Positions 26,710-33,857 of a DNA stretch of 64,000 nt are shown piece after piece. Made by a program: the position numbers and the translations under genes. Every line of letters begins with the position of its first letter. Positions within the stretch are counted from its first letter, which is position 1. The notes under the pieces were generated by a model. That model saw only the letters and a program-made list of their open reading frames with translations. It was not told where the DNA came from and did not search any database. The stretch is from Planctomycetia bacterium (lineage in GTDB: Bacteria; Planctomycetota; Planctomycetia; Pirellulales; Thermoguttaceae). The stretch lies in contig JAUNBR010000005.1 in assembly GCA_030527015.1 (NCBI GenBank), positions 1 to 64,000 of the forward strand, given 5' to 3'.

Positions 26710-26812
26710 CCACGCGACTCTTTTTTTGTCTTACATAAAATTTCACATTTCATGCCCTTTAAAATTTTATGTTTCATATCCTTAAAAAATCGCTCATCCC
26801 CCCCACACATTT

Positions 26813-27445
26813 TATACCGACACTCTATAAAATTCCGCTTCCCAGGCATTTTTACTTTACTGAAAATGCATGTTTTCAGAAACGCACAAAACAGATATTC
26901 ATACCGACACTCTATAAAATTCCGCTTCCCAGGCATTTTTGCTTTACTGAAAATGCATGTTTTCAGAAACGCGCAAAACAGAAATTTATACCTGACACTC
27001 TATAAAATTCCGCTTCCCAGGCATTTTTGCTTTACTGAAAATGCATGTTCTCAGAAACGCGCAAAACAGAAATTCATACCGACACTCTATAAAATTCCGC
27101 TTCCCAAGCATTTTTACTTTACTGAAAATGCATGTTCTCAGAAACGCACAAAACAGAAATTCATACCTGACACTCTATAAAATTCCGCTTCCCAGGCATT
27201 TTTACTTTACTGAAAATGCATGTTTTCAGAAACGCGCAAAACAGAAATTTATACCGACACTCTATAAAATTCCGCTTCTCCAAGCATTTTTACTTTACTG
27301 AAAATGCATGTTTTCAGAAACGCGCAAAACAGAAATTTATACCGACACTCTATAAAATTCCGCTTCTCCAAGCATTTTTACTTTACTGAAAATGCATGTT
27401 TTCAGAAACGCGCAAAACAGAAATTTAAACGAGAACCCGTATAAA
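26813..27445 (-). repeat. seven-unit tandem array of TATAC hairpin elements
   Basis: Seven reverse-orientation units begin at about 26813, 26900, 26987, 27075, 27162, 27250 and 27338, a period of 87-88 bases. Each unit reads CGACACTCTATAAAATTCCG, then GCATTTTTACTTTACTGAA, AATGCATGTTTTCAGAAACG and CAAAACAGAAATT. The outer AAAGTGGAACCAG arm is lost at each internal junction, and a form of it (AACGAGAACCCGTATA) survives only after the last unit. Units differ at a few positions. The long frames across it are not genes. Confidence 0.92.
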
Positions 27446-32137: not shown

Positions 32138-32593
32138 TATCCCCGACACACTATAAATTTTTGTTTCACCGGCATTTTTGCTTCGCTGAAAATGCCTGCT
32201 TAAAGAGCCGTACAAAACGGAAATTTAAAGTGAAACCCGTATAATATAAGTTTTTTTGAACGGATACCGTTAAGAAAGTTTTCGTTTCGGTTCCTTTTTT
32301 CTGCTTTAAATTTCTGAATTTTCAGTAATTTAAGCATTATACGTCTGTCTGCCCGACAGTCATTTTCCTTAATGAAAAATTTAAAAAGTGAAAACACCTT
32401 TTGCGTCAAGAATAGAATTCTTGCCCACGGTAAACTTTCACTTCCCGATTTTCTTTATGCTCAAAATGCTGGCTGACAGTCATGTATAGACCTGATACTA
32501 ATTTAAATTTCTGTTTTACACCGTTTTGAAAGCAGGCGTTTTTCTCGAAGTAAAAATGCAGAAAAAACAGAAATTTATAGTGAATCAGGAGTA
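32138..32593. repeat. TATAC hairpin elements before rpsT
   Basis: A reverse copy at 32138-32243 follows the terminator, and a forward copy lies at 32485-32593. Between them is AT-rich sequence with no gene. Confidence 0.78.
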
Positions 32594-32995: not shown

Positions 32996-33021
32996 TTTGT
33001 CGTTTACGCACATTTTCTTTC

Positions 33022-33164
33022 ACGTACGTTCCATATTTTATACCGGATACACTATAAAATTCCGCTTTCTCAGCATTTAGCTTCGCTGAAAATGCCTGCT
33101 TTCAGAGCCGCAAAAAACGGAAATTTAAAGTGGACTCAGGATATGAAACGTACGTGTTTTTTCT
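33022..33164 (+). terminator. rpsT terminator stem containing a TATAC element
   Basis: ACGTACGTTCCATAT at 33022-33036 and ATATGAAACGTACGT at 33141-33155 form a 15 bp inverted repeat with one mismatch, and the right arm is followed by GTTTTTTCTTTT. The loop of this terminator-like stem is a complete reverse hairpin element (33039-33144). Confidence 0.72.
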
Positions 33165-33195
33165 TTTATACGGTCTCTTTTTTTTATTTTTGTTT

Positions 33196-33325
33196 ATACC
33201 AGATTCTGCTTTAAGTTTCCATTTTGTACCCCTACAAAAATCAGCACACTTTAGTCGAAACAAAAATACTCGTCTCTCGGCAGACGGGAAAAGCGAAAAT
33301 TTATAAATACTTCAGTCATAAATAT
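33196..33325 (+). repeat. TATAC hairpin element upstream of coaD
   Basis: A degenerate forward copy with a CGTCTCTCGGCAGACGG insert ends 13 bases before the coaD start, so it forms most of the coaD leader. Confidence 0.65.
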
Positions 33326-33338
33326 ACTCTGATAAATC

Positions 33339-33857
33339 ATGAAAAATCCACAAATCGCCATTTACCCCGGTTCTTTTGACCCTATTACCCTGGGACATCT
33401 CGATATAATGACCCGGGCAAGTAAAATTTTTGACCGCCTTATCGTGGGAATCGGCATAAATCTGGAAAAAATAGCCATGTTTACTCCGGAAGAACGGATG
33501 GAGCACATCCGTCTGGCGACAGCTCATCTGCCGAATATCGAAATACGCACTTTTTCCGGTCTGGCCGTAAATTTCGTCCGGGAATGCGGCGCAAACATCA
33601 TGATTCGTGGAGTACGCCCGATTACTGACATTCCTGCGGAATTAACCATGATGATGGCGAATCGCCGTCTGGCAAATGATGTGGAAACTCTCTTTATGAT
33701 CGCAGATGGAGAACTGGCACACGTTTCCAGTTTTCTTATAAAACAAATTGCGAATCTCGCCAGCGACGAAGAATTCACAAAATTTTTACCGGAAGCAGTC
33801 ATCCCCCTGGTGCGTCAGAAAATCCGAGAATACGGGAACTCTAAAATGACAAAATAA
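33339..33857 (+). CDS. coaD: pantetheine-phosphate adenylyltransferase
   Basis: The 172-residue protein is CoaD, which adenylates 4'-phosphopantetheine in the fourth step of coenzyme A synthesis. The nucleotidyltransferase motif IYPGSFDPITLGHLDI (TxGH) is at residues 6-21. NIMIRGVRPITD and the C-terminal SSFLIKQIANLASDE with the ISST-like region are present. Length is slightly above the usual ~160. There is no clear ribosome-binding site before the ATG; a repeat copy ends just upstream. It is hexameric and cytoplasmic in known cases. Confidence 0.96.
   Translation: MKNPQIAIYPGSFDPITLGHLDIMTRASKIFDRLIVGIGINLEKIAMFTPEERMEHIRLATAHLPNIEIRTFSGLAVNFVRECGANIMIRGVRPITDIPAELTMMMANRRLANDVETLFMIADGELAHVSSFLIKQIANLASDEEFTKFLPEAVIPLVRQKIREYGNSKMTK

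Follow-up and report, generated by a model that had tools for sequence, protein, structure and literature searches.

We conclude with considerable confidence that the palindromic repeat lying behind the ribosomal protein S20 gene (rpsT) is a MITE of the IS630/Tc1-mariner type, which inserted into a TTTTA motif at the tip of a pre-existing rpsT terminator, and that this site was hit for its TTTTA and not for its hairpin. That the terminator was there before the element is well supported, although no empty-site strain was found among the genomes examined. Here and below, the window denotes the whole 64,000-nucleotide stretch of DNA that was analysed; the features of the rpsT locus within it are collected in Table 1.

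The rpsT gene, for which S20 homologues were recovered in 59 of the 60 genomes searched, is followed 25 nt past its stop codon by an inverted repeat of 16 nt that contains one mismatch, in short form CACGTACGTT...AACGTACGTG. The earlier note had described 15-bp arms with one mismatch around a complete element, and both arms are indeed there (ACGTACGTTCCATAT at 33022-33036 and ATATGAAACGTACGT at 33141-33155), as is the T-tract that it had placed behind the right one; an extra outermost pair, C33021-G33156, extends the stem further. The right arm as read in that note includes the last A of the element together with the TA duplicate (33141-33143), such that 33144-33156 is the portion that belonged to the original terminator. 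The element itself matches our nhmmer family model from position 1 to 104 with 96.1 bits. No Rfam family was matched in the window at the gathering score. The gene next downstream is presumably coaD-like.

Table 1. Features of the rpsT locus (positions in the window).
Feature	Position	Strand	Evidence
Further MITE copy, upstream of rpsT	32492..32589	-	Family model, 63 bits
rpsT (ribosomal protein S20), 90 aa + stop codon	32723..32995	+	ORF and homologues
rpsT terminator stem, left arm CACGTACGTTCCATAT	33021..33036	+	Inverted repeat and fold
TTTTA target, left junction	33036..33040	+	Boundary mapping and flank profile
MITE copy at rpsT, including both TA duplicates	33039..33143	+	nhmmer family model, TIR comparison
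Right arm ATATGAAACGTACGTG, as read by the inverted-repeat finder	33141..33156	+	Sequence, inverted repeat, fold
Second TA of the target duplication	33142..33143	+	Junctions; nested copies rejoin around one TA
Terminator T-tract TTTTTTCTTTT (T6CT4)	33157..33167	+	Sequence
Decayed MITE copy between terminator and next gene	33200..33305	-	Family model, 34 bits
Gene next downstream of rpsT	33339..33857	+	ORF; same gene after rpsT in same-genus relatives

When the flanks are brought together with one TA kept, they read CACGTACGTTCCATA-TTT-TATGAAACGTACGTG and then the T-tract, the reconstructed element-free site being CACGTACGTTCCATATTTTATGAAACGTACGTG-T6. This sequence folds at -16.0 kcal/mol (z -4.88, with 0 of 200 shuffles as good) into a hairpin of 10 bp, a mismatch and 4 bp capped by a TTT loop, and thus presents a stable hairpin with a T-tract behind a gene, as is characteristic of a Rho-independent terminator. 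The earlier claim that removal of the element leaves a normal terminator is borne out by this fold; its placement of the target TA in the loop has to be amended, since the TA lies at the apical end of the stem, outside the loop proper. With the element in place the outer stem is still predicted to close, the whole of 33021-33156 folding as one structure, and the first ten pairs reach a mean pair probability of 0.98 in equilibrium folding, which is silent on the speed of hairpin closure across the insert of about 104 nt. Shuffled inserts allowed the outer stem to close equally well (0.98), and closure therefore reflects the strength of the outer stem and not the palindromic nature of the insert; the idea that a self-folding insert specifically helps the stem to close was rejected for the same reason.

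The joint fold of 33021-33156, in which the inner stem pairs merge with the element ends, could also suggest a longer version of the repeat, a MITE whose extended terminal inverted repeats include the outer stem, in place of a host terminator. However, the family boundary is sharp at the TA in 838 full copies, and the core of the stem arm occurs in the flanks of only one of them, the rpsT copy, which argues against the stem being a part of the element; the position 25 nt past rpsT and the T-tract likewise fit a terminator. We consider this the least likely of the readings weighed here, and the alternative that the earlier note itself had named, an inverted repeat that always travels with the element, is contradicted by the same count from this genome. 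It is likewise extremely improbable that the terminator evolved around an element already landed there, or that the arms pair merely by chance. The flank-pairing score of the rpsT site, 14.0, is the highest of 323 copies, of which permuted flanks would lead us to expect 0.13 at or above that value, such that one or two flank pairs of this kind are expected among some 4,000 copies. Nevertheless, that expectation took no account of the T-tract, the strand or the position, all of which are specific to a terminator, and a terminator is to be expected at this place, where relatives have a hairpin. The rpsT site also has the top terminator score among the 838 full copies.

These relatives comprise seven genomes of the same genus, all of which carry rpsT (S20 identity 61-69%) with the same next gene, and in none of the seven is the element found behind rpsT. 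At L002, L005, L006 and L008 a hairpin starts 9-46 nt past the rpsT stop codon. None of the seven spacers aligns with the present stem, from which they are too diverged to show it empty. The comparison of orthologous loci that the earlier note had proposed thus delivered element-free loci, several of them with a hairpin, and no instance of the same stem without its insert.

Concerning the target itself, TA stands at both junctions in most copies, and in nested copies the host copy rejoins when one TA is kept, in several cases ungapped at the junction. The duplication is therefore the 2-bp TA, and the T's on its 5' side are part of the target; at rpsT, the first of the two TA copies is at 33039-33040. 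The left flank profile reads TTT|TA, with 71-81% T at the three positions, and 368 of the 838 copies (44%) have TTTTA at their left junction; among intergenic TA sites, 21% are TTTTA in one or the other orientation. The measured preference is TTTTA, which is present at the rpsT loop. We also observed MITE copies lying inside the inner-hairpin region of other copies at TTTTA-type sites (L068:9434, L069:5312, L068:8304 and L068:16092).

Does the hairpin as such play any part in target choice, as the earlier note had suggested? Such a process would have the transposase or target capture favour a TA in hairpin or cruciform loops, with terminators as preferred sites. Two good terminator-loop cases and several nested insertions in the T-rich loop region of another copy's inner hairpin speak for it. 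The nested sites are themselves TTTTA-type, however, and across the family the predicted signal does not appear. When flank pairing was scored near the junction in 323 copies, its mean, 3.966, equalled that of permuted left/right pairs (3.969), with the rpsT site as the single outlier. When we scored hairpins that span the junction and carry a T-rich tract on either strand (cut-off -12 kcal/mol or better), terminator-like hairpins were found at 4 of 838 full copies, as compared with 4.05 expected from 6,000 actual intergenic TA sites drawn at random, 3.8 from 3,500 TTTTA/TAAAA sites and 0.75 from permuted flanks; four such events are too few to reveal a preference or avoidance of less than about two-fold. 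The excess over permuted flanks indicates that the majority are genuine terminators, and the agreement with real TA sites that the element finds terminators at the background rate. An apparent enrichment in the smaller sample (4 among 323 copies versus 0.33 permuted) was discarded because it used the wrong null and showed no excess over intergenic TA sites. The IS630-type MITE has no detectable hairpin preference, and the suggestion that the locus throws light on target choice is unsupported; we regard hairpin-directed insertion as very improbable.

The second of the two terminator-loop cases, which has the second-best terminator score, reproduces the rpsT geometry independently, and insertion into a terminator loop can thus recur. 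This copy (L072:14655-14760, equivalent to G000:C14:24655-24760) lies 43 bp past the stop codon of a minus-strand ORF of 1,711 codons and splits GAAAAGGCCGTT-ATATAA-AACGGTCTTTTT-TTCTTTTT at a TTTTA. The hairpin folds at -13.5 kcal/mol, with its T-tract on the strand of that ORF.

The family to which these copies belong is an about 100-base (~104-bp) non-coding palindromic repeat. A profile built from copies in the window and the genome detected 1,565 of them in 1.40 Mb of sampled stretches (36.5% of the assembly), where they occupy 10.9% of the bases, and a first-order shuffled control of 1.4 Mb returned 0 matches to the family model. Density varied little across batches of stretches (1.05 to 1.16 copies per kb), and by extrapolation we infer about 4,000-4,400 copies per 3.84-Mb assembly; about 102 lie in the window alone. 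Full length was retained by 924 copies, 897 of which fall outside ORFs of at least 110 aa. Other same-genus species have tens of MITE candidates or fewer, a first look having returned 2,418 candidates in the own genome (G000) versus 54 in the same-genus genome G004. The repeat is short, non-coding, multicopy and dispersed, with a target site duplication and terminal inverted repeats, as MITEs are; its ends, TATACCCGATRCACTATAAATTTCCG and TATACTGGTTCCACTTTAAATTTCCG, are imperfect inverted repeats that match at 23 of 31 positions. By match score the rpsT copy outranks about 90% of full copies and is thus fairly young, but it differs from the consensus. The description of the locus as an insertion caught in the act is accordingly right as to insertion into a terminator and overstated as to the act. 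At 26807-27442, seven MITE copies stand in tandem with a period of 87-88 bp, and most of them are truncated on the right at one shared point (model ~89-90).

The TA duplication, together with terminal inverted repeats that match decayed IS630 transposons of the same genome, indicates that the repeat is an IS630-type MITE. The own genome contains several IS630-type transposase genes with DDE_3 and winged-HTH (HTH_33) domains over cut-off, and all those seen are fragmented; at least one of them (L064/L065, G000:C82, 18-1632) is broken by MITE-family copies at 563-663 and 991-1088. One IS end, TATACTCATTCCATTTTAAAATTTCGC, is identical to the right end of the MITE at 21/31 positions and the opposite one, TATACTCATGCCATTTTAAAATTCAGTTTT, at 24/31, the latter value being reached in 0 of 20,000 shuffles; the left end of the MITE resembles the IS more weakly (19/31). 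The right end matches the IS630 of G004 at 24/31 as well. In G004 there are 27 transposase matches, with MITE relatives at 84-91% identity among the matches listed, and a contig scan revealed transposase relatives in several organisms, among them, at 40-43% identity, anammox Planctomycetota. The MITE would appear to have been mobilised in trans by the IS630 transposase, the genes of which persist in this genome in decayed form. An origin as a REP/REPIN via a RAYT was rejected, as Y1_Tnp (PF01797) is absent from G000, an assembly 93% complete, with control genomes positive. The IS630 copies of G004 at L088, L109 and L111 have an almost identical flank, GACGGAACGGGAAATTTCAACGCGAAGTATTATA, as would be expected had they landed in one common repeat; the flank lies on the left side in two of them and, reverse-complemented, on the right side in another.

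We propose that a non-autonomous MITE of ~104 bp moved by cut-and-paste into the TTTTA at the apex of the rpsT intrinsic terminator, a target of the family's usual kind within a non-coding spacer, and that it was for this reason, and not for the hairpin, that the site was hit. The two halves of the terminator would thereby have been moved about 104 bp apart. With the insert at the apex, the stem could still close around it and the T-tract would stay beside the 3' arm. This apical position would explain why termination is probably kept and why selection would tolerate the insertion; we infer that the rpsT terminator probably still works.

Taken by itself, the insertion at rpsT is an ordinary, random one whose geometry is instructive; as regards hairpin targeting by an IS630-type MITE, the survey built on it came out negative. 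The MITE load, roughly one copy per 0.9 kb, is a useful case for asking how palindromic inserts by the thousand can be tolerated in the spacers and gene 3' ends of a bacterium. We are evenly divided on the broader proposition, namely that an IS630-type MITE at ~4,000-4,400 copies, taking up 10-11% of a 3.8-Mb genome in which the transposase genes have decayed, ranks among the largest prokaryotic MITE expansions known, with terminator-splitting insertions tolerated at an approximately neutral rate.

IS630 elements insert almost exclusively at TA, which they duplicate, as established for ISY100 (PMC2170065). The MITE shares this feature with ISY100 and the IS630-Tc1-mariner group, whereas ISY100 is autonomous and supported by in vitro data and the chemistry of the MITE is read from its junctions. 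In size and parentage, RUP of S. pneumoniae, a 107-bp short repeat related to IS630-Spn1 (PMC3049150), is the nearest analogue known. Both are of the same size class, carry IS630-related terminal inverted repeats, fold into tight palindromes, reside between genes and nest with other repeats; the copy number here is far higher, the IS630 transposase genes seen here are decayed, and the likeness is one of features, not of compared sequences. The Correia elements (CREE) of Neisseria are likewise short intergenic elements with terminal inverted repeats and TATA-type ends, but they differ in host and sequence and number >120 copies in N. gonorrhoeae, as compared with about 4,000 here (PMC10969869, PMC2649163). 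A 2024 review of prokaryotic MITEs gives up to 711 copies, for ERIC in Photorhabdus, and states that extremes of the kind seen in plants are not observed in prokaryotes (PMC10969869). Within the open-access literature, and with no claim to priority, the present genome is exceptional by that yardstick, at several times 711 copies.
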